From NCBI GenBank assembly GCA_013306675.1, contig JABLUY010000329.1, forward strand, positions 1 to 32,785: a DNA stretch of 32,785 bases, given 5' to 3'. Positions 54 to 27,634 of this stretch are shown here, piece after piece. Under the pieces are notes generated by a model that was not told where the DNA came from, did no database searches, and worked only from the letters and a program-made list of their open reading frames with translations. The position numbers were made by a program, and so were the translations under genes. Within the stretch, counting starts at the first letter, position 1; every line of letters starts with the position of its first letter. The DNA is from Thraustochytrium sp. TN22. Its lineage: Eukaryota; Sar; Bigyra; Thraustochytrida; Thraustochytriidae.

Positions 54-1511
54 ATGGGCCTGCGGCAGTCCGCCGCTGGCGGCGGCGGCGGCCGCCGCGA
101 GCCGCGGCACGCGGAGAACGCGGAGGAGGACGACGGGATGGACATGCACGAGCTGGCGGCCGTCGCCGAAGACGTCGCCGAGGAAGACGGAGCCCGCGAG
201 GGCGGCGAGGGCGAAGCTGGACCGCCAGGGCAAGCGCCAGATGCAGAGACGCTATCGGCAGCCGCAGAGGAGATCCACGGGGAACCGTTGCGGGACAAGG
301 ACGCCGTGCGGACCGCGCCGCTCGGCGTCGGCCGCTCCTGGTGCAAGTGCAGCCAGCGCGGCGAGGGCGCGGGGGAGGACGCCGGCGAGCGGGACGACCC
401 GAGCAGTGCCGCGCGCGCCGCGGAGCGCTGCTGTGTGTGCCCCGGATGTGTCTGTTGTGATGAGGACAAGTCCAAGGAACACAAGGACGTGCACGAGGCC
501 TCCTTCGACGCCGGCGACGACGACTGCTGCGCCAACGCGAGGTGCTTCGGCCGCGACGTCTGTGGTGTTCTCTGCACAGGCGTCGCTTGGTTCTCCCTCA
601 TCTTCTGCAGCATGTCGGTCGTCTTCGTGCTGCGCAACCTGCCAGACACACTTATTGCATTCTACCTCAGCTTGGTAGTCAGCGCCATGATCTCGCATCT
701 GCTGGCGTCGCTGAGCGACCCAGGCTGCGTGGCTCGGGGCACGGGCCGCGCGAAGTGGGCGGAGCTGGCCGCCAGCGTACACGACGGCATGCGCGAGCGC
801 CTGGAGGCGCGCCGCGACGCGACCGCCGCCGAGAATGAGCAGGGTGGCTTCTATGAGCGCGAGGTGAGGCTACCGGACGGCACCACGAAGCGCGTGCAGG
901 TGCCGCGCCAGCCGCGCACCTTGCTCTCGGACGCGGAGATCGACTTCAAGTGCCGCCGTGCCGTCGAAAAGTACCGCGTCAAGGTGCGGTACTGCAAGCT
1001 CTGCGAGTGCTTCAAGCCGCCAAGTGCGCACCACTGCAGCACGTGCCGCCGCTGCATCCGCCGCCTCGACCATCACTGCCCGTGGATTGGTGGCTGCGTC
1101 GGCGAGGACAATCTGCGCTACTTTTTGCTCTTCCTTTTTTACGTCTTTTTGGCCGCCGCGCTCTCCATTGGACTCTTTGCGTACCGCAGCTACATTGTGG
1201 TCTTTCACGAGCCCGTCGTGCACCGCCCGGGCACGCCCGGGGCGAGCCCGCTCGGCATTATGGCGTGCATCCTCTCCACGATCCTCTGCTGCTTCTTTTG
1301 CGTCTTCGTGGTCGCCATGTCCTTTGAGCAGTACGAGGCCGTCACCACGGGGGTTCCTGGCATTGACGCGCTCCAGGGCGTCGGGATCGACCAAGAGCTC
1401 AGCGTCTATCGCGGCCTCAAGAAGTATGCCTGTGCCGGCCGCGGCTTCTCGCCACTGTGGTTCTTGCCTCTGCCCCTGCCAGGCGACAACGTCAAGAGGA
1501 AAAATGACTAA
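54..1511 (+). CDS. DHHC-type protein S-acyltransferase (palmitoyltransferase)
   Basis: This is a membrane enzyme that transfers a fatty acyl group, usually palmitate, from acyl-CoA to cysteines of target proteins. Seen in the 485-residue product: an acidic N-terminal region of about 165 residues with a cysteine cluster ([10 protein letters not shown], about 126-135); two hydrophobic segments (about 171-193 and 200-220); a DPGC motif at 222-225; a Cys-rich domain with the catalytic DHHC at 339-342 inside the family-typical [12 protein letters not shown]; then two more membrane segments (about 357-380 and 401-423). The four-segment layout with the Cys-rich domain on the cytosolic loop is standard for the family. 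TTGVPG around 435 sits near where the TTxE motif lies, but I do not see a clean TTxE. The start is the first ATG after the GGC repeat. An upstream start is possible because the frame is open to the window edge. The substrate cannot be told from sequence. Confidence 0.95.
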
Positions 1512-6897: not shown

Positions 6898-7920
6898 ATG
6901 TCGAAGACCGCGTGCCACCTCGTGGTGGCTGGGCGAGTGGACGACGTGAGCTTTCAGACTGCGCGGCATCTCGGCGAAGAGCTCGCGCGCGAGCAGGCCA
7001 ACGTGAGCTGCGAGGTGCGCGCCCTCTTCGGCACGGAGTGGGAAGACTTTGCGCAGACCAAATGCGAGCAGCTCGGTGTGGAACTCACCTGGACGGAGCC
7101 CGTCCTGGTTTTCTATAACAAGCAGCACCTGGTCGGCAGCTTGGAGGACCTCGCCATCTGGGCGGTGAAGGTGTACGACTTTGAGCGCGACATTGACCCG
7201 GCTTCTTTCCGGGAGCATGCCCAACAGGCCCTGCACGCCGCCATGGACAAGCGCGGCCACACCTTTTGCTATCTAGATGTGGTGGTTGCCCAGGAGGACT
7301 CTACCGAGCAGGATTCGGACCAGGCCGCTGAGCCGGCGCACTGCGACGAGTGCAAGTCCGCCGAGTCCAAGGAGTGCGAGGAGAAGGTCACGGACATTGA
7401 GCGGTCAGAACTCCGCGAGCGAGTCGTGGTGGAGCTTTTTGACGACCTCTGCCCGGATACGTGCGAGAACTTCATGCTTCTGTGCTGCGGCGAGGGCGAG
7501 CACGGAGGCTACAAGGGCAGCGCCTTTCACCGCATCGTGGACGGCGGCTGGGTACAGGGTGGCGACGTGGTGGATGGCTCCGGCAAGCACAGCGCTGCGG
7601 CCATCGGGTCCCAGGCCACCTTCCCCGACGAGACCTTCGCGGTAAAGCATGACCGCGCAGGTATCATCTCCATGGCAAGCACCGGCAAGGCGCACTCGAA
7701 CGGGAGCCAATTCTTCGTCATTCTTGCGCCACTGCCCTGGCTGGACTGCAAGAGGGTCGCCTTCGGCCGCGTTGTATATGGCATGCGCGCCTTCCGGGCC
7801 ATGGCCGAGCTCCCGCGCAGGAATGAGCGCCCCGTTGGCCGTTGCGAGGTTCTGCGTTGCGGCGTCTTTGGGCCGAAGCACTCCCTGACTGTCAAAGATG
7901 CCAAGAACCAGTCCAAGTAG
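6898..7920 (+). CDS. PPIL6: PPIL6-like cyclophilin (peptidyl-prolyl isomerase)
   Basis: This 340-residue protein has the two-part layout of PPIL6: a non-cyclophilin N-terminal region of about 130 residues containing the LVGSLEDLAIWAVKVYDF segment (compare FLGDALDLQKWAHEVWDI in human PPIL6), then GHTFCYLDVVV and a divergent cyclophilin domain. Between these two parts is an acidic, Cys-containing insertion (about 138-165) absent from the human protein. Active-site residues are retained: the catalytic Arg of FHRIV (212), QGGDVV, NGSQFF (268-273) and the Trp of WLDCKRVAFG (281), the position that governs cyclosporin binding in cyclophilin A. PPIL6 is associated with motile cilia in animals. Its neighbours, DRC9 upstream and a CatSper-like gene downstream, fit that role. 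The ATG at 6898 follows a GA-rich leader. A general cytosolic cyclophilin is excluded by the N-terminal region. Confidence 0.88.
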   Translation: MSKTACHLVVAGRVDDVSFQTARHLGEELAREQANVSCEVRALFGTEWEDFAQTKCEQLGVELTWTEPVLVFYNKQHLVGSLEDLAIWAVKVYDFERDIDPASFREHAQQALHAAMDKRGHTFCYLDVVVAQEDSTEQDSDQAAEPAHCDECKSAESKECEEKVTDIERSELRERVVVELFDDLCPDTCENFMLLCCGEGEHGGYKGSAFHRIVDGGWVQGGDVVDGSGKHSAAAIGSQATFPDETFAVKHDRAGIISMASTGKAHSNGSQFFVILAPLPWLDCKRVAFGRVVYGMRAFRAMAELPRRNERPVGRCEVLRCGVFGPKHSLTVKDAKNQSK

Positions 7921-8000
7921 GTGTCAATGCAATCACATCGATCAATAGTTCATCGTGAAGTAGGTGACAATGCAATCACATCGTTCAATAGTTCATTTTG
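7915..8000. repeat. 43-bp tandem duplication across two convergent stop codons
   Basis: Units 7915-7957 and 7958-8000 both start AAGTAGGTG and share CAATGCAATCACATCG and TCAATAGTTCAT with very few differences. The first unit carries the PPIL6 stop on the plus strand, and the second carries the CatSper-like stop on the minus strand. Confidence 0.93.
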
Positions 8001-8258
8001 AGGCTGGTCGCTCGACCCAGGTCGTCATACGGGTGGTTGCTCGATGACTGCCCACGCCCACTCCGGCTCCCGGACAAGCCCTGCCTCCGACCCCCGTGCT
8101 GGTCTGAAGCGTCAGAGTCAGAGCTCGACCCCGGGTCATCTCCCGACTTGACCGAGGCATGGCGCTTGCGTGCCTTGCGCTTGCGTCCCTGGTGGGCCCC
8201 ATCGCTATGACGAAGGTCCTTGTCGCCGTTGGCGTCATCGTCATCCTCGCTGCGGTCG

Positions 8259-8290
<32 letters not shown>

Positions 8291-11200
8291 GTCATCTTCG
8301 TCGTCGTCATCGTCATCGTCATCGTCATCATCGTCATCGTCATCGTGCAGCACAGACTTGCCGTCCGAGTCGCTGTCTGAATCGGAGGCATCGGACTTCT
8401 TGAGCTTGCCGCGAAGTGCATTCACTTGGACGCCCTGCAACTCACGCAGGCGCCGATGGCCCGAGACGCCCTTCTGACGGCGATTGTACCAGTAGAGCAA
8501 TGGGATAAGCGCCAAGGAAATGGTGATGGCGTTGGTGACGATGATGGCATTGAGCGTGATGGGCAAGTTGTGTATGCGTACGATAAAGTCCGTGGAGAAA
8601 TCGCAGTAGGAGTTGTCGGCGCGCGCCACGAGGCGAAGCTTGAAGAAATACTCGGGCGGCGCAGGAAAGCGCGGCATGACACCGGCGCATGGGCTTGTCT
8701 TAGCCATGCAGAGCCAGCGCACATAGTACGAGCCTGCAGAGCTCTCAGAGAAGGACACCTTCGTAACGTCAGCCCACGTCGACGGGTCGAAGTCCTCGAT
8801 GGCTTCGTAGGTGAGGCCACCGCCAATTGCCACCAGATCGCCGAAGTCGCCCTCGACGACCTCCTCGTCGCCGGACACATCGTCGATAAGGCGGAAGCGC
8901 GGCGTGAAGAAGTTGTCATAAAACACGCAAATGTCCTCGCTCCCCTCCACGCAGCCCTGAAGCACGTCGCCGCGGCTCGCGTTCGCGTCGAAGATGAGCC
9001 GCTGGTGCGGAGGGCAGCCCGAATACACGGCGACCTGCATGGGCGGCATTGCCATGGTGGTTGTCACGATCGCTGTCGGGTCGATCTCCGAGTTGCAGTC
9101 CCTGCTCAGGCCTTGGACGGCAAAGGTCGTCAGCTGCAGGTTCCGCCCTGGCTCCGCGTGAAACTCGGATGCAATGGCGTTAGCGCCGCTCGAGGTCGGT
9201 GCAAAGAGCGCCGACGTCGACTGCTGCCAGGCACCGCGGTCGCGCAGCTGGATGGTGTAGTCCACGATGCCGTGCAGGACGTCCTCTGTACGGGTTTGAT
9301 TGAAGGCGATGAGATGCTGATTGCTGAGCTCGAAGCCCAGGTGCAGGCCGGAGAGCGCGATCAGTTGGCGGTCCAGCACGGCGTCTGCAGGCACGCTGCT
9401 GAAGAGGCGGATCATAAATGTGTAATTTTCCCCGCGGTCCAGGAAAATGCGCGGCGGCAGGTCGTTACGAAAGCCAATCTCCTGCATGGACGCCGCGTAG
9501 GCGAGCAGGCCGCCCTCTGTCCCCTCGAGCTCGCGCGTGTGCTGGACGCGGTGTCTCGCCACGACCACCACGTCTTCCAGCGCGCAGGCGCCTGTCGAGG
9601 CCCCATACTCGCCGGCCAACTCCCGTACACTCTCCATGGGCAGCGAGACAGAAGGTGCCAGCTCGCGCAGCCCGTTGTCGGACCCGAGTTCCCGCAGGCC
9701 GATGACACGTAGTTCATTTGCCTCGTCGAAGAGGATGTCGAGCGGTGGCACGAGGCCGCGCCCAACGACCTCCGTAACGTTCATGGACAGCAGGTAGATG
9801 GTGTCGGCGCCGGTGCGGCCGAGCCAGACGCGGTGCTGCTCCGTGAGCACGGCGAGCCAGCCGTCCTGCGAGGCCGCGAAGCACACGATCGGGTCCTGCG
9901 CAAATGTTAGCGTGTCACTTTCGTTGACGGCGAAGTCCATGGTAGCCCCGTGCAGCGCGCTGGAGGTCTGTGCCACCTTCCAAAAGGTCTCCCCCGCGTT
10001 ACGGCTCAGAAGCAGCGCGTTGCCCCAAACATATGTCTGCGGGGACGGCCGCGGTAGCACGTCCAAACCGCGCAAGCGCAGCGCTGTGTCGCTACCGGGC
10101 CGCGATGTCTCCGTCTCTGGGAAGATTCGCTCGCCACGCGCGCTAGAGTCGTACGGCAGCGGCTCGAAGATGGGTGGGAACGCGAAGAGGTCGGTCCAGC
10201 TCCCGTTGGCGTAGCGTAGGAGCCGCTGCGTCGGCAGTGGGTCGTCAATGTCTTCACGAACCAGAATGAGCGCCGCGCCGGCACCGTTGGCCTGCATGGT
10301 CTGCGCGGCCACAACGCGGGCTGATGTCCCCACGACGTCGCTGAGCGCCTTGCCATCGCCATCGCGGAGTTCCCGGAGCGAGAACTCCGGCGCCGTGGTG
10401 CTCCCTCCACTTGTGCAGACATCTGAAGCACCCGTGGCCGCAAAGATGGTTGGGATCTGCACGTGGGCAAAGTCCTCGGCGGCGAAGAGGTCGTCATCGA
10501 AGGAGACGGTGGGCGTGGCATTGGTCGGGACGAAGAGAAAACTGCACGGCGCCTCGACATCCACGGGGTCCAACTGCTTGAGCGGGATGACGTGTCCACA
10601 CAGGGGCGCCAAGGCACGCCATTCCTCGTCGAGGGCTGCCTCGCGTGGGTTCACGTTGTCCGCCCGGCGCACGGCGAGCCCCCAAGTCGTGGAGGCCACA
10701 AAGAGGCCTCCTATTGACCACAACTCGGGCGTCCAGCTGCCGTGGTCAGTCGCACAGGGACCGGCCTCCCACGGCAGGGAGTTGCGTACGAGGAGATCTT
10801 CGTAGGCGTCGCCCGCCTCGACTTCCTCGTAGGCGCCGTCGTCATCCGACGGGTCGAGGTTCCAGTCGTGCTCCACGGAGGTCCTCTGCGTGGCAAATGG
10901 GTACAGGCGCGTCAGGTCTAGCGTTGCGTAGTTGGGCTCGCTCAGCTGCTGGAAGGCGTTGCTGGAGAGCTGCAGCGTCAGTGAGGTGCCGCCTTGCGCC
11001 GCGTTAAAGATCGCCGCAATGGCGACCCAGGACATGCCAGGGACGTTGTAGACGCGCAACGTGTCCCAGGTACCTGCCGTGCTCACGTGCGGTAGGTCTG
11101 ACCAGGACAGCGGCTCATGTGCAGCTTCAGCTGTGAAGTCGCTTCCTGAGACCCGGAGCAGCTCCACTGCGGGCATCTCCTCCGTCACGCCAAGCAGCTC

Positions 11201-11797
11201 CAGGAGCGGCGTGCGCAAGACGACACGACTCGCGCAAATATCCATGCGCCCGATGCAGTTGTCCCAGTATGTCGTGGTCTCAAGCACGATTGGGCCATAC
11301 TTGAGTGCCTGGTTGATGTTGACGATCACCTCCCAGCCGTCCTCGGCGTTGTCCAAAATCGTCGGCTCCAGAGTCTCACACCAGTCATTGGGTCCGCACG
11401 ACGTGGTCCAGAAGATCGAGTCGGCCTTCACAGCCGGCTGCACGCCCATGCCGAAGGCCTGCGCCGTAGCTCGCGGGTCTTCCACGAAGTTGCCCTCTGT
11501 GCCGACGCGCCGCATCAGCGACCACCGCAGGCGCATGCGCGCCTCATCGGCAAAGACCGTGCTGGCTTCATCGCTCGCCACCGACCTCACCACCGTCTCC
11601 CGGACGCTCTCCGCCTCCCCGTCCAGCACGGGCGCCAGCGACGCGCGCAGTCGCCACCGGTGCGTGCAGGCGCCCCCCGCGCCGCCATGTGGCGTCGCCG
11701 CCGCCGCCGTCGCCGCCGCCGTCGCCGTGACCAGCGCCCAGGCCAGCCACGCAGCGCCGCCGCGCCGCCGCGCCGCCGGCCGTCGCGCCGCGCGCAT
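7985..11797 (-). CDS. CatSper-type auxiliary subunit (large ectodomain, single TM)
   Basis: This 1270-residue type I membrane protein resembles the beta/gamma/delta/epsilon auxiliary subunits of CatSper, the flagellar calcium channel of sperm and some protists. Seen: an Arg-rich start and a hydrophobic stretch (about 14-35) like a signal peptide; an ectodomain of about 1040 residues with seven N-glycosylation sequons and many Cys; a mid-region segment ASQDGWLAVLTEQHRVWLGR, which matches the propeller-like part of these subunits; a membrane-proximal NSYCDFSTDFIVRI, like their SYCN(L)xTxF stem; one membrane helix (about 1080-1103); and a cytosolic tail of about 165 residues with a long Asp run (about 1150-1185) and Ser-Asp repeats. 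A VPS10/sortilin protein was considered because of LSRNAGETFW, but the Asp boxes and 10CC module are not evident. The ATG at 11797 is chosen because the frame upstream has no ATG. Which subunit it represents cannot be decided. No introns are needed. Confidence 0.72.
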
Positions 11798-12054
11798 CGC
11801 GCGCGACCAAGGCCAACCGGGTCTGCGCCGCGCGCCGCGCCGCTGGGACGCGCGTCCCACCCCAGCTCAACAACAGCCTGAGCAGGCAGGCAACCTGGCA
11901 ACCAACTCAACTCCGAGTCTGGCATCAGCAAAGTGCGTGTTGGAGCCTGACGACCGTTGAGTGGGCCACGACTCGGACGGCGCCGCGGCGGTGGCTCTTG
12001 GCCGGCGCAGGGAGCTGGAGGGCTTCGTGCGGGCCCCCGGGCGGCCAGCGGCGA
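11798..12054. other. Upstream region of the CatSper-like gene
   Basis: This GC-rich sequence lies between the CatSper-like start and the first copy of the duplicated claspin-like 3' end. It probably contains the CatSper-like promoter. No conserved element is recognised. Confidence 0.5.
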
Positions 12055-19344: not shown

Positions 19345-19383
19345 ATGCATTCCGCTAAGGCGTCCCCGCAGACCGTGCAGCAG

Positions 19384-19447
<64 letters not shown>

Positions 19448-22400
19448 CCGAGGTTGAGCAGCAGCCCAAGGAAGAGCAAGGGGACGACCTGAGCAACGAC
19501 ATCGTGTGGTACCGCGGACTCAGCGTCGCCGCGCTACAGGCCATCTGGCAAGGCATCCTGAACGGCGAACGCGCGCAGGGCGTCCAACTATACGTGCTCA
19601 AGGAGAACGTCGATGCCACCGACAACAGGGGAAACAAGACTGGCACCGCCAACGCTGGCTGCACCGCCGCGGTGCGACGACCCCGTGCCGACGGCAAGCT
19701 CAAGGGCAACGTTGCCTACGTCAAAGGCCAGGTCCTCTTCTCCCCCCACCAAGCTACACCCAAGGACAGGGCCGACTGGACCATCGAAGACGTCTGCGAA
19801 TACCTTGTGCTCACCGACACCCTTCGCGACAGCCTCTTCTACCTCGACGTCCTGCTAGAGGAGGCCGACGACCTCGTCGGCAAGCCCTTCGACGGCGCCT
19901 TCGTCAGCCAAGCGCGCAAGTGCCGCTTCGGCGACCTCGTCCAAGCCATCGTCGCGCACTACACCAAGCAGCGCAGGAACCTCCGGACCACCTTCGTATG
20001 GCTCGACATCTTCTGCGCCAACCAGCCCAAGCTCGCCAACAAGGACGCAGACCTCTCGCCCGAGATTTACCAGCAGCGCGACGACCTCCTCACGCGCGGC
20101 CTCCACGCCGCCATCGAGCGCTTCGACGAACGCCTCATCTTCTTCGACAAGTGGGACGATCCCACGCCCCTCACACGCATGTGGTGCGTCTGGGAGGTCT
20201 ACGGCGCCGTCATCTGCGGCAGGGCCCTCGAGCTCATCTTCGCGCCGGGCCAGGACCAGCGCTTTGTTCAGCTCATGGAGGATGAGACTCCCGACGCTGT
20301 CACCAAGGCGCTCTCCAAGTTCGACCTCGCCAACGCCGACTGCCACGTCGACGCCGATCGCAAGATGATCACGGAGGCCGTTCAAGCCCTGCCCGGCGGC
20401 TTCCACCACCTCAACGGCGTCGTGCTCGAGCAGCTGCGCGTCTGGCTCGCACAAACCGCGCGGCGCATCGTGGCCTCTCGCGTTCAGAGCGAAGGAAAGA
20501 CCCTAGGGGTGGCATCTCTCATGCACAACGTCGCCTGGCTGCTGAAAGACCAAGGCCGCGACAAGGACGCCCTCGACCTCCTCCGGCAGTCGCTCGAGAT
20601 TAAGTTGATCACGCAAGGACCGAGTCACCCGAACGTACTGACGACGAAGCACCAAATCGCAGGCCTGCTTCAAAACATGGGCCAGTACGAGGCGGCGCTG
20701 GCGCAGTTCAACGAGGTGCTGGAGCAACGCGCGGAGCAGCTCGGGCCGACGCACCCATCCGCGCTGACGACGAAGGCCACCATCGCCGACCTGCTGCGGA
20801 ACATGGGCCAGTACGAGGCGGCGCTGGCGCAGTTCAACGAGGTGCTGGAGCGCCAAGTGGAGCAGCTCGGGCCGACGCATCCATCCGCGCTGACGACGAA
20901 GGCCAACATCGCCGGCCTGCTGCGGAACATGGGCCAGTACGAGGCGGCGCTGGCGCAGTTCAACGAGGTGCTGGAGCAACGCGTGGAGCAGCTCGGGCCG
21001 ACGCACCCATCCGTGCTGACGACGAAGGCCAACATCGCCGGCCTGCTGCGGAACATGGGCCAGTACGAGGCGGCGCTGGCGCAGTTCAACGAGGTGCTGG
21101 AGCAACGCGTGGAGCAGCTCGGGCCGACGCACCCATCCGTGCTGACGACGAAGGCCAACATCGCCGGCCTGCTGCGGAACATGGGCCAGTACGAGGCGGC
21201 GCTGGCGCAGTTCAACGAGGTGCTGGAGCAACGCGTGGAGCAGCTCGGGCCGACGCACCCATCCGTGCTGACGACGAAGGCCAACATCGCCGGCCTGCTG
21301 CGGAACATGGGCCAGTACGAGGCGGCGCTGGCGCAGTTCAACGAGGTGCTGGAGCAACGCGTGGAGCAGCTCGGGCCGACGCACCCATCCGTGCTGACGA
21401 CGAAGGCCAACATCGCCGGCCTGCTGCGGAACATGGGCCAGTACGAGGCGGCGCTGGCGCAGTTCAACGAGGTGCTGGAGCAACGCGTGGAGCAGCTCGG
21501 GCCGACGCACCCATCCGTGCTGACGACGAAGGCCAACATCGCCGGCCTGCTGCGGAACATGGGCCAGTACGAGGCGGCGCTGGCGCAGTTCAACGAGGTG
21601 CTGGAGCAACGCGTGGAGCAGCTCGGGCCGACGCACCCATCCGTGCTGACGACGAAGGCCAACATCGCCGGCCTGCTGCGGAACATGGGCCAGTACGAGG
21701 CGGCGCTGGCGCAGTTCAACGAGGTGCTGGAGCAACGCGTGGAGCAGCTCGGGCCGACGCACCCATCCGTGCTGACGACGAAGGCCAACATCGCCGGCCT
21801 GCTGCGGAACATGGGCCAGTACGAGGCGGCGCTGGCGCAGTTCAACGAGGTGCTGGAGCAACGCGTGGAGCAGCTCGGGCCGACGCACCCATCCGTGCTG
21901 ACGACGAAGGCCAACATCGCCGGCCTGCTGCGGAACATGGGCCAGTACGAGGCGGCGCTGGCGCAGTTCAACGAGGTGCTGGAGCAACGCGTGGAGCAGC
22001 TCGGGCCGACGCACCCATCCGTGCTGACGACGAAGGCCAACATCGCCGGCCTGCTGCGGAACATGGGCCAGTACGAGGCGGCGCTGGCGCAGTTCAACGA
22101 GGTGCTGGAGCAACGCGTGGAGCAGCTCGGGCCGACGCACCCATCCGTGCTGACGACGAAGGCCAACATCGCCGGCCTGCTGCGGAACATGGGCCAGTAC
22201 GAGGCGGCGCTGGCGCAGTTCAACGAGGTGCTGGAGCAACGCGTGGAGCAGCTCGGGCCGACGCACCCATCCGTGCTGACGACGAAGGCCAACATCGCCC
22301 AAGTGCTGAAGGACATGGGCCAGTACGAGGCGGCGCTGGCGCAGTTCAACGAGGTGCTGGAGCAACGCGTGGAGCAGCTCGGGCCGACGCACCCGTCCGT

Positions 22401-23061
22401 GCTGACGACGAAGGCCAACATCGCCCAAGTGCTGCAGGACATGGGCCAGTACGAGGCGGCGCTGGCGCAGTTCAACGAGGTGCTGGAGCAACGCGCGGAG
22501 CAGCTCGGGCCGACGCACCCGTACGTGCTGACGACGAAGCACAACATCGCCGGCGTGGTGCAGGCCATGGGCCAGTACGAGGCGGCGCTGTCGCAGTACA
22601 ACGAGGTGCTGGAGCACGAAGTGGAGCAGCTCGGGCCTTCGCACGAGCACGTCGCGATCACGCGGTACAACATCGCGTTGACTCTCTGCGACCTCGCCCG
22701 CTTCGATGAGGCGCTCCCGTTCGCGACAAGTGCCCAAGAGATTCTCAAGGCGACCTTAGGCGCGGACACGGAGCACCCGCGGCTAAGCTTCGCGTACCTC
22801 GCCCAGGGTCGGGCGTCGCTAGGCCTTGGTCGCCATGGGGATGCTGTTGCGTCTTTGCAGCGTTCGCTGGCCATCCGCGAGGCCTGCTTGGGTTCGGACC
22901 ACCCAGACACGGCCGTTTCGCAGTACTACTTGGCTGAGGCGACGCACGAAGGGTCGCTCGCAGCGTTGGCGCTGGCGACGCGTCGGGCCAAGCTGGGCGC
23001 GGCGCACCCGCTGACAAAGGCATCGGCTTTGCAAGTGGTGTCCATCTCTTGCGATACATAA
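19345..23061 (+). CDS. PolyQ / TIR-like domain / high-identity TPR repeat protein
   Basis: With the start at 19345 (MHSAKASPQTV) the product has 1238 residues. Seen in order: a polyglutamine run from CAG/CAA repeats (about 12-35); a domain (about 45-385) with FVSQARKCRFGDLVQAI (from 186), FVWLDIFCANQP (WLDIFC from 219) and MWCVWEVYGA (WCVWE from 280), the signature of a TIR-like fold found next to TPRs in many protist and algal proteins; then TPRs of the kinesin-light-chain/nephrocystin type with a 42-residue period. Sixteen MGQYEAAL units (444-1115) lie between degenerate TPRs. Ten consecutive units (20926-22185) are identical at the DNA level. TPRs bind proteins. The combination with a TIR-like domain suggests signalling or recognition, but no function is shown. 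The frame is open upstream to 18931, so a longer N-terminus is possible. Confidence 0.85.
20674..22689 (+). repeat. 126-bp tandem array, 16 units, central units identical
   Basis: Sixteen in-frame 126-bp units start at 20674 and recur every 126 bases, the last at 22564. Units from 20926 to 22185 are base-for-base identical. The first two and last three differ at a few codons (Ser-Ala for Ser-Val, Gln-Val-Leu-Lys for Gly-Leu-Leu-Arg and similar). Identity in the centre and divergence at the edges is the pattern of recent unequal exchange. Confidence 0.97.
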
Positions 23062-25073: not shown

Positions 25074-27634
25074 TCATGTGACGACGTCAGCCTGGTTGGC
25101 TGCCGCGCTTTCATCGGCGGCGGCGGCCTCCGCCGCCTCCTCCTGCTCCTGTGGGGTGGGTTTGATGAGCATGAAGATGACGCGAGCCTTGTGTGTCTCG
25201 GAGAAGTTGCGCAGACCGTAGCTGGTGTAGCGCGGGACCCAGAAGTGGTCGCCAGGGCCAAGCTTGAAGCAGGAGTCTTCGACCTGGACTACGAGGGCGC
25301 CTGGCTGTGCGTCTGTGACCACGAAGACCTGGGTGAACCCGAGCGAGCCCTCAAAGGGCTTGGAGCCCAGCGGCGGCAGCTCGCAAATGCCGGAGATGAA
25401 GCGGTCGTCCTCGAAGGCGGCGCCCGCGCGCGCGTTGGAGGCGGGCACGGACTTGCCATCTTCCGTGTCGAAGCGCGTGACGTCGTCCGAGGGCATGTCC
25501 TCGAGGTCAAAGTCGGTGGCGCGTCGCACGACGATGGACTTGATGATGGAGTTCGACTCCGGGACCGTGTGCTGGACAGGCTCAAAGGGATCCTGTGTCA
25601 CCAGATCGCGCGGCAGGCGCACGGGCTTGGTGTCCTGGAAGTCGAGCTCCTCCGCCTTGACCTTTGCTCGGCTGCGCGCCTTGGCACGCGAGCGGCTGGC
25701 GTCTACCGTGCTGGTGGTGGCGAGCGAGCGGCGGCGCATGCGCAGCGGCGCGGGTGTGTGGAAGGTGGCGGGCTTCTCAGCGCCCACGACCTCGTCGATG
25801 ACGATACCAAGCTCCTTGTCCCGCTTGCGGCGTTGGATGAGGCGCTCGCCCTTCCAGTGGTCGAGGACGGCCCAGCGCTTGCGCTTGGAGCGCCGCATCC
25901 CGGGCGTCGGCGGCTCCTTGGACGGGTCGAACATGGGCTCGATGAGTCGCCGCGGCTTGCGCTCCGCCGTGCGGTATGCGACCTCGCTCCTGTCGGTCGC
26001 TGGCGTCATGGCGTCATCGCGGAAGGACTGCGACACGGGTGTTCCGGTCGCGGCGGTGTCGCGTGACTTGCGCGTGGCCGCGGAGGTGGCGTACGAGGAC
26101 GACGCGCTCGAAGAGCGCAGTTCCGAGCTCCCCGCGGACCTGGATGTGGCAGGGGTGCGCGTTGGCGTCGAGGAGCCGCGGTCGCGGCGAGCGGAGCTTG
26201 CGGGCGTGGAGGCGGCCAGCTCCTCCGCCTCCTCCTCGCTGGAGTCGGGGTCAAAGGCGGCCAGGGGCGTGGGCGAGTCCGGCACGCCGCTCGAGGATAC
26301 CGCTGGACTGCGCGCGGGCGACCTGCGGTGCTGCTGGCTGTCATCGTCCGTGGACGCGTCGGACGCGACCAGGGCGTCCTCCTGCTCGTCGGGTCGAAGC
26401 AGCTTCGGCGAGCGGGCCGCCGAAAGGCGGCTCACGGACTTGTGGTGCGTCTTGGGGCTCGCTGGCGACCGCGGGCCGGCGATGCTCTCCGGGGGGGACT
26501 GTGCCTCGACCTTGCGGGAGAAGCGCACGCTCTTGGTGGTCGAGGGTGCTGCGCGCGGCGTCCGGCGCAGGGCGCTGCGTGGCGGCGTGCGTTTCGCGGC
26601 CGCGACTCGCGAGGGCGCCACGGCCACGAGCGGGACCGGCGGCGGCGCCCGCGACGCGGCGATGAGCTTGCGAATGCCCATTTCGTCCTCGTCCGAGGAG
26701 TCCACGGGCGAGTCCGCCGCCTCCTCCTTGATGAGGGGCGCGCGGGCGGCAGGGCTCTTTGCTGTCGAGGACGCGGCCGTTTCCGGGGGCGTGGGCGGCA
26801 GCAATCGGATGCCGACGGCAGGAGATCGAGCCGCCGCTGGGGGCGTAGGTGGCATCAGTCGGATGTCGACGCCCTGCTTGGACCTTTCGAAAGCGAACCC
26901 GTCGTCCTCCTTGCTTTCCGCCTCGATCTTTTCCTGCTTGTGCTTGGCGCGTCGCCGCGCGGGCGTAGCAGACAGCGGCGGCGAGGACGGCGGCGGCAGC
27001 GGCGTCCCAAGCTCGTCTTCCTCTTCATCCTCTTGGTCGTCGTCCTCGTCGTCCTCGTCGTCGACGTCATCATCATCATCGTCCGCGTTGATGTCGCCGA
27101 GCATGACCTTGCGCGGACGGCGGTTCCCGCTGCGCGTCTTGCGCTCGCTGCTCCAAAAGGCGCCAACGGAGTCCATGCCGAGCGAGTCCTTGCGCGGCGC
27201 CTCGCGCGCGAGCGCAGCTGCGGTGCCATGGTCGTTGCTGGGCTTTGCGCGCTCGCGCTGCCGCCGTGGGCCCGCCCGGCGCTCGCGCTTCACCGCGGGC
27301 GTGCGCGCGGGGGGGCTGGCCGCCGCCACGGCAGCGCCCTCGTCCTCCCCGGCCGCCGCGGCGGCGGCTGCCTCGTCCTCCTCGCCGAGCCCGCCGTCGA
27401 GGGTCCTCCGCTGCGTGTCGTCGCACCGGCGTCATCTTCGCGGTTAGTCTCCTCTGGGGCGCATTCTGGCCTTCGCACCGCGCGCTCGCTCGCTCGCCCG
27501 CCCGCCTCACGTACCCTAGCGTGCCTCCCGGTGCCGGCCCTGCCGCCCGCGCGGCGCCGCCCCGCCGCCGCCGCCGCCGCCGCCGCCGGGCCCCCGCTCA
27601 TCTCGCAACTCGCCAAGCGACTTTGCTTTTCCAT
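25074..27634 (-). CDS. CENPC: Centromere protein C (CENP-C / Mif2), 2 exons
   Basis: CENP-C binds CENP-A nucleosomes and scaffolds the inner kinetochore. Exon 1 (27634-27515) and exon 2 (27410-25074) join in phase through a 104-bp GTACGT...CAG intron with an ACTAAC branch-like site, giving 818 residues. A second in-frame ATG at 27601 would give 807. Seen: a Gly/Ala/Arg-rich N-terminus; a disordered Ser/Pro/Arg-rich body with an Asp run (about 150-170) and many SP/TP sites; the CENP-C motif RRSKRKRWAVLDHWKGER (from about 546), which matches the nucleosome-binding consensus; and a C-terminal cupin domain (about 690-790; GICELPPLGSKPFEGSLG, FKLGPGDHFWVPRYTSYGLRN), the dimerisation fold of CENP-C/Mif2. 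Without the splice, exon 2 has no ATG and meets a stop just upstream of the acceptor, which supports the intron. Confidence 0.93.

Follow-up and report, generated by a model that had tools for sequence, protein, structure and literature searches.

A thraustochytrid gene family that joins a conserved N-terminal domain to homogenised TPR arrays: candidate recognition receptors without a STAND NTPase

What might a protist do with a protein in which a conserved, possibly TIR-like domain runs straight into a long array of nearly identical tetratricopeptide repeats (TPRs)? The question is raised by one gene in contig JABLUY010000329.1 of Thraustochytrium sp. TN22 (assembly GCA_013306675.1), of which the whole stretch of 32,785 nucleotides was analysed (the window). 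A preliminary description had read this gene as a TIR-like effector joined to TPRs, and as a possible recognition receptor working without a NACHT domain in a flagellate. The gene belongs to a family of about 98 copies with the same architecture, with arrays homogenised to different units in different genes, variation focused on the TPR groove and an N-terminal domain under purifying selection. The reading that we narrowly favour is that these are recognition-receptor genes, a conserved signalling domain on a TPR solenoid without a STAND NTPase, which would work like fungal NOD-like receptors (NLRs) through an effector clustered by binding at the groove.

Architecture of the gene

The layout of the gene is given in Table 1; the open reading frame (ORF), its coordinates and the three sequence segments quoted in the preliminary description all proved exact. 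The conserved N-terminal domain covers approximately residues 52–385, and the TPRs begin at about residue 389, immediately after it. In the homogenised part of the array, Tandem Repeats Finder reported 126 bp × 16.0 copies with a 97% match, in agreement with the 16 near-identical TPRs described earlier, and the unit hidden Markov model (HMM) found 18 ungapped units when the diverged end units were counted. One amino-acid unit is present 10 times, and neighbouring 126-bp units showed 0 base differences in nine successive comparisons, which is far beyond chance.

The N-terminal domain had no significant Pfam match. For the whole protein, the best stretches of the 25 families listed of 39 all lay in the repeat region or the first TPRs. 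Neither NACHT nor NB-ARC was matched by the N-terminal domain alone or appeared among those 25 families, and with the TPRs directly following the domain, the predicted passage from a TIR-like domain to TPRs with no NACHT or NB-ARC between them stands for the Pfam matches listed. The nearest named TPR classes were TPR_NPHP3 in Pfam and the solved kinesin light chain structures, the latter being the best solved-structure matches. Kinesin light chains bind kinesin through an N-terminal heptad coiled coil; no kinesin-light-chain-type Pfam match was found in the N-terminal domain here, for which no coiled-coil prediction was made.

Table 1 Features of the TPR-array gene and of its neighbours in the window.
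Feature	Position in window	Strand	Remarks
Whole ORF	19345–23061	+	1238 aa, apparently a single exon; paralogues are long uninterrupted ORFs too
CAG/poly-Q tract, part of low-complexity leader (residues 1–51)	19377–19447	+	Leader with poly-Q
Conserved N-terminal subdomain (residues 52–175)	19498–19869	+	Fold unassigned; invariant K140, R142, W145, E148, D149
TIR-like core (residues 176–330)	19870–20334	+	FVSQAR, FVWLDIFCANQ, LIFFDKWD, RMWCVWE; no Pfam TIR match
Glu284 of WCVWE	20194–20196	+	Candidate counterpart of the TIR NADase glutamate
Connector to TPRs (residues 331–388)	20335–20508	+	Without NTPase
Kinesin-light-chain-type TPR array	20509–22644	+	42-aa units; homogenised part 20634–22644
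C-terminal TPR cap	22645–23058	+	Not homogenised; similar in sisters whose end was read (L003, L004, L008)
DHHC palmitoyltransferase	54–1508	+	Neighbouring gene
Cyclophilin	6898–7917	+	Neighbouring gene
CatSper-gamma-like gene	7988–11860	-	CATSPERG_C, E 6e-14
CENP-C-like gene	25077–27329	-	Neighbouring gene; fits a eukaryote

A gene family of about 98 loci

The genome comprises 37.9 Mb in 453 contigs, the window being one of them, and all family comparisons were made within this single genome. A six-frame search with the N-terminal region as query (E up to 1e-3) gave 107 matches, which formed 98 loci on 76 contigs once neighbours on one strand with gaps of under 1200 bases had been merged. A stop codon lay inside three of the 107 matches, and the rest were open. 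Forty-eight loci were read across the domain and yielded 49 genes (one locus held two), 11 divergent loci were read in part, and about 38 further loci lay outside the sample.

TPR_12, a superstructure-forming repeat of the kind that characterises NLRs, was found in all 49 ORFs read across the domain, and neither NACHT nor NB-ARC was among the 25 commonest of the 65 Pfam families over these ORFs. Twenty-eight columns are invariant over the 49 domains, including W280, C281, W283 and E284. The genes carry between 0 and 18 ungapped units by the unit HMM, so that the paralogues with different repeat numbers that the preliminary description had called for exist, and the case of a single-copy gene with an invariant repeat number fails within this genome. 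The window gene has seven sisters with N-terminal domains 81–93% identical to its own, and six family copies stand in tandem on C448. A further family-domain match has beside it, on the same strand, a TPR_12-type array (C7:73960–77337) that spans about 27 unit lengths and exceeds all the arrays read.

The idea that allelic copies account for the entire family was rejected, the sister copies (window included) lying on eight different contigs. Upstream homology to the window stopped at most 257 bases from the ORF in all seven sisters. Downstream, two of three extended copies lost homology within 209 bases; the third, on C198, shares about 1.7 kb with the window and may therefore have arisen by segmental duplication or represent a second haplotype.

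A short basic leader of the RRSLGRLA type precedes the domain in several sister genes and is missing from the window copy as read from 19345. The corresponding motif, [RK]xS[LIV]xx[LIVM][SA], occurred in 15 of the 49 N-termini (L003, L012, L015, L038 and L040 are examples) and not once in the 28,652 aa that follow residue 150, although looser variants were common; a role in targeting, anchoring or phosphorylation is possible.

No relatives were found in bacterial and archaeal genome contigs, in viral contigs, in plasmids (queried with one divergent member) or in phages (queried with the window domain), and PADLOC gave no result with either the window domain or one divergent member. No description of the family was found in the titles and abstract openings of the open-licence literature searched. 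In other protists, among which the family may be more widely spread, similar proteins with the pattern FVSH...WFD...WCLWE carry the annotation of kinesin light chains.

Relationship of the N-terminal domain to TIR

The order of motifs in the N-terminal domain fits that of a TIR. Profiles were compared by hhalign against an alignment of 25 TIRs of the same genome (29 TIR stretches were translated, and L072, L074, L077 and L079 were left out). After addition of divergent family members, the local comparison gave P 0.0093, and the core alone gave P 0.0045 with an HH probability of 7.7%, using the 42 domains, of 60, left by filtering for length and 75% redundancy. For this best-scoring alignment, one of 200 column shuffles scored as high, the reversed alignment scored 12.1 vs 23.3 for the real one, and the path paired FVSQAR with FLSH, WLD with WLD, and WC..E with C..E. 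Another alignment version gave P 0.0098, and the HH probability was never above 8%. From these comparisons and partly from the motif order, we lean towards a domain homologous to TIR.

Several results weigh against this. With an E limit of 1, none of the 49 members had a Pfam TIR match; the first hhalign comparison gave P 0.73, and a decoy test with hmmsearch was negative, the TIR profile placing 2 of 59 domains, and the domain profile 0 of 25 TIRs, above the 99% level of the shuffles. The identification of the domain as a TIR in the preliminary description is thus not established. The same results, together with the global hhalign value of P 0.18 and the lack of a relevant solved structure among those searched, would be expected if the domain were a novel enzymatic or binding domain unrelated to TIR, the receptor-like architecture being real and the TIR analogy accidental. 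The divergent member L086, the sole one with a sub-threshold TIR_2 match (E 0.073), bears on both possibilities: the match covers the WC..E stretch, but RuBisCO matches the first part of the same sequence better (E 0.022). In view of the core alignment, its shuffles and its motif pairing, we consider a non-TIR domain possible but the less probable case; it would be compatible with a receptor role and would change the effector step. The core also matched PF06985 (HET) weakly (E 0.35), and two single-sequence AlphaFold2 models made without an alignment had mean pLDDT values of 40.4 and 45.8, too low to use.

The catalytic glutamate of TIR NADases was among the features to be looked for. A glutamate at the W-C-x-x-E position is kept in 59 of the 60 domains examined, whereas its equivalence to the catalytic residue follows from the weak alignment above, so Glu284 is put forward as a candidate counterpart. 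The one exception, L082, belongs to the C448 tandem cluster and has lost the glutamate (WTVWG), as expected of a decoy or non-catalytic partner, which it might be.

Homogenisation of the arrays to different units

Arrays were called highly homogenised at an internal identity of at least 85% over at least 100 aa, with windows that approximate the published fungal criterion. Eighteen of the 49 genes, the window gene included, have such arrays. On the tree of N-terminal domains this trait changed seven times, and at least five changes were forced by well supported branches; homogenised arrays have therefore been gained or lost several times.

Sister genes with N-terminal domains 91–93% identical have arrays homogenised to different units. 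Seven arrays could be read, those of the window gene and six sisters, and for each of them no exact copy of its commonest unit was found in any other array read. Five of the seven carry that unit 10, 5, 2, 2 and 2 times, and L005 and L008 have no exact unit repeat. Repeat numbers in L002, L005, L006 and L007 are minima, these sister arrays being cut by the ends of the fetched sequence or of the contig or containing runs of N. The differences extend to the groove residues (TPR positions 2, 5, 9, 12, 13 and 31), which are TAGRNR in a run of 11 units in the window gene and AHCQAR in five units of L004; in L003, AFQQDF alternates with AHRRDQ or AHRRNQ, and in L002, THQKDR alternates with THQQDE or THQQDK.

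Unit DNA identity within vs between arrays, diverged end units included, was 0.846 vs 0.784 for L001, 0.810 vs 0.776 for L002 and 0.803 vs 0.778 for L004, and in L003 and L005 it was barely higher within the array than between arrays. Homogenisation array by array is less well supported elsewhere: within-array identity was not above between-array identity in L006 and L008, and outside the sister group two homogenised arrays have an exact unit in common with another gene, L034 (its commonest unit) with L018 and L023 with L027, which points to some exchange between genes or to recent common descent.

The TPRs alone would also suit a family of scaffolds or cargo adaptors, flagellar or cytoskeletal proteins of the kinesin light chain or nephrocystin type, with different cargo grooves and no role in the recognition of non-self. 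The nearest named TPR classes are indeed those of TPR_NPHP3 and the kinesin light chains, and diverse cargo would give variable grooves as well. For housekeeping adaptors, however, a copy number of about 98, recent homogenisation and units that differ between close sisters would be unusual, and highly conserved repeats make up 0.4–1.2% of such repeats in plants, animals and dikarya vs 16% in fungal NLRs (PMC4986451). We regard the adaptor explanation as unlikely.

Variation and selection at the TPR groove

For the analysis of variation, units were kept if ungapped against the unit HMM (334 of 397 matches, from 48 of the 49 genes). Variation concentrates on the predicted TPR ligand groove. Among the units of the window gene and its sisters (81 in all), entropy was 2.24 bits at TPR positions 2, 5, 9, 12 and 13 vs 0.91 elsewhere (permutation P 0.0002), and among those of the other genes (253) it was 3.42 vs 1.93 bits (P 0.00004); with the comparison restricted to helix A, the permutation P was 0.00037 in both unit sets. 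Positions 2, 5, 9, 12, 13, 33 and 34 are the most variable of the TPR and are exposed on its concave face (PMC1261162).

The ratio of nonsynonymous to synonymous change (dN/dS) was calculated from recent within-array pairs of at least 75% DNA identity, weighted by array; 21 of the 48 arrays had any such pair. At the groove it was 1.16 (95% bootstrap interval over arrays 0.82–1.59) vs 0.50 (0.39–0.63) elsewhere, where the latter excludes positions -1 and 31, themselves strongly variable. Groove dN/dS exceeded the rest in all 2000 bootstraps over the 21 arrays, and nonsynonymous change per codon was higher at groove positions in 19 of them. The N-terminal domain is under purifying selection, with a dN/dS of 0.35 over 28 pairs of eight genes.

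These values have to be set against others that limit what the groove can say in favour of recognition. Variation at these positions is a general property of TPRs (PMC1261162), and its location is therefore no proof of recognition by itself. The interval of 0.82–1.59 includes 1, so that the groove ratio does not significantly exceed this value. With the seven sister arrays taken alone, the groove dN/dS was 1.24 vs 0.93 elsewhere and was the higher in 81% of bootstraps. A cruder count over all pairs, superseded by the array-weighted version, gave about 2 at the groove but also about 1.5 in helix B; its extra identity filter left L007 without units.

A further explanation is neutral instability: slippage and unequal exchange would multiply the GC-rich units and make them alike, and the groove would vary since the other positions are structurally fixed. 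This fits a groove ratio not significantly above 1, the raised proportion of synonymous differences (pS) at groove codons (0.296 vs 0.109) and the many other tandem repeats in the window. With the groove excess of nonsynonymous change in 19 of 21 arrays, matches that stay open and an N-terminal domain under purifying selection, we judge it unlikely.

A possible mode of action

Under the receptor reading, the array would present many copies of one groove and could thereby bind a repetitive or oligomeric ligand with high avidity. Ligand binding would gather the N-terminal domains, which would then act as the effector, most likely by a TIR-type activity that cleaves NAD or makes a nucleotide signal through Glu284, leading to cell death or alarm. 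Duplication and conversion of repeats would supply new groove specificities while the effector stays constant. As to the recognition receptor proposed earlier, the NACHT-less architecture of a domain plus homogenised TPRs is borne out by the data, and the different units in sister arrays and the focus of variation on the groove add to it; the recognition role itself we infer.

Taken further, and only tentatively, a unicellular stramenopile may keep a germline repertoire of about 98 NOD-less receptors with a constant effector and a TPR groove rewritten array by array. It would be a system of NLR scale outside plants, animals, fungi and bacteria and without an ATP switch, standing beside more than 100 TIR matches and TIR-STAND-WD40 receptors in the same genome. 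Receptor repertoires of large size are commonly associated with multicellular organisms or with bacteria, and receptors that diversify through their repeats with the NLR switch. If the proposal is true, a family of this size exists in a probably unicellular protist, its repeats evolve much like those of fungal allorecognition NLRs, and repeat diversification can serve a bare effector-plus-solenoid design without a NOD. Whether such a cell recognises viruses, bacteria or members of its own kind then becomes a testable question.

Genome setting and neighbouring genes

TIR_2 had 123 matches in the genome, 114 of them over the cut-off, and none overlapped a family match when the lists were compared by eye. 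NACHT had eight matches (seven over the cut-off), NB-ARC two and HET one. Nine TIR ORFs were scanned; TIR_2 was among the matches listed in seven, and for L059 and L060 it came from the genome-wide search. L060 (1521–6299, minus strand) encodes a TIR-STAND-WD40 protein with an NPHP3_N STAND domain between TIR and WD40, and L059 (1–3798, minus strand) encodes, by the best 25 families listed, a TIR-WD40 protein. WD40 unit identity is 95% over 100 aa in L059 and 78% in L060, and the layout of both resembles that of fungal NLRs of the HET-E type. From this content of TIR_2, NACHT, NB-ARC and STAND-WD40, the genome around the family is rich in NLR-like parts.

Among the other TIR_2 ORFs, L054, L056, L057 and L058 have a similar-looking region preceding the TIR, with a sub-threshold COR-B match in L057, which suggests Roco-TIR proteins. 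L032 shows ankyrins: an ankyrin-TIR_2 gene (L032:2–1102, plus strand) immediately precedes a family member that has the same orientation.

The host is probably a single-celled marine protist. A 3044-aa frame matches the omega-3 PfaA (2539.7 bits with neighbours in frame), with a 2083-aa PfaA-matching frame beside it on the opposite strand; such a head-to-head PfaA-type pair is typical of thraustochytrid polyunsaturated fatty acid synthases. The CatSper-gamma-like gene in the window implies a flagellated stage with a CatSper-type channel, in keeping with the flagellate host proposed earlier. In the window, nothing ties the DHHC palmitoyltransferase, the cyclophilin or the CENP-C-like neighbour to the receptor-like gene.

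Comparison with known systems

With kinesin light chain and nephrocystin-3 the family shares the 42-aa TPR unit and its best solved-structure matches; unlike them, it has an N-terminal domain resembling no Pfam family and a far more homogenised array. With TIR domains (PF13676/PF01582), for which SARM1 and bacterial TIR defence proteins are the comparators, it has in common the motif order and the WCxxE glutamate, whereas it lacks a significant family match and has an extra N-terminal subdomain of about 120 aa. The fungal HET domain has been described as a remote relative of TIR, and the proteins that contain it often have no other identifiable domain (PMC10197012); the PF06985 match of the family core is not significant, and the one HET match in the genome lies elsewhere.

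The NB-ARC-TPR and LRR-ROCO candidate receptors of brown algae (LRR, leucine-rich repeat) are also from stramenopiles, diversify through their repeats and have selected LRR sites on the concave side (PMC11378527). They do so by exon shuffling and contain NB-ARC or ROC-COR, whereas the present genes have tandem units in a single exon; unicellular relatives within SAR have four or fewer ROCOs (PMC11378527).

The closest parallel to the proposed way of working is with fungal NLRs that have highly conserved WD, ANK or TPR repeats, such as the hnwd genes of Podospora and the NB-ARC-TPR protein Pa_2_10340. In these as in the present family, the repeats are homogenised, evolve in concert and vary on their concave or binding face, the effector domain is N-terminal and the families are large (PMC2873952, PMC4986451). 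The variation at the groove described here resembles the picture reported for an NB-ARC-TPR protein of fungi, in which the selected sites lie on the concave side of a model based on kinesin light chain 2 (PMC4986451). Membership among the NLRs goes by a central NACHT or NB-ARC, and no such domain was among the Pfam matches listed here: where the fungal proteins carry this switch, the effector-like domain of the thraustochytrid family joins the TPRs directly.

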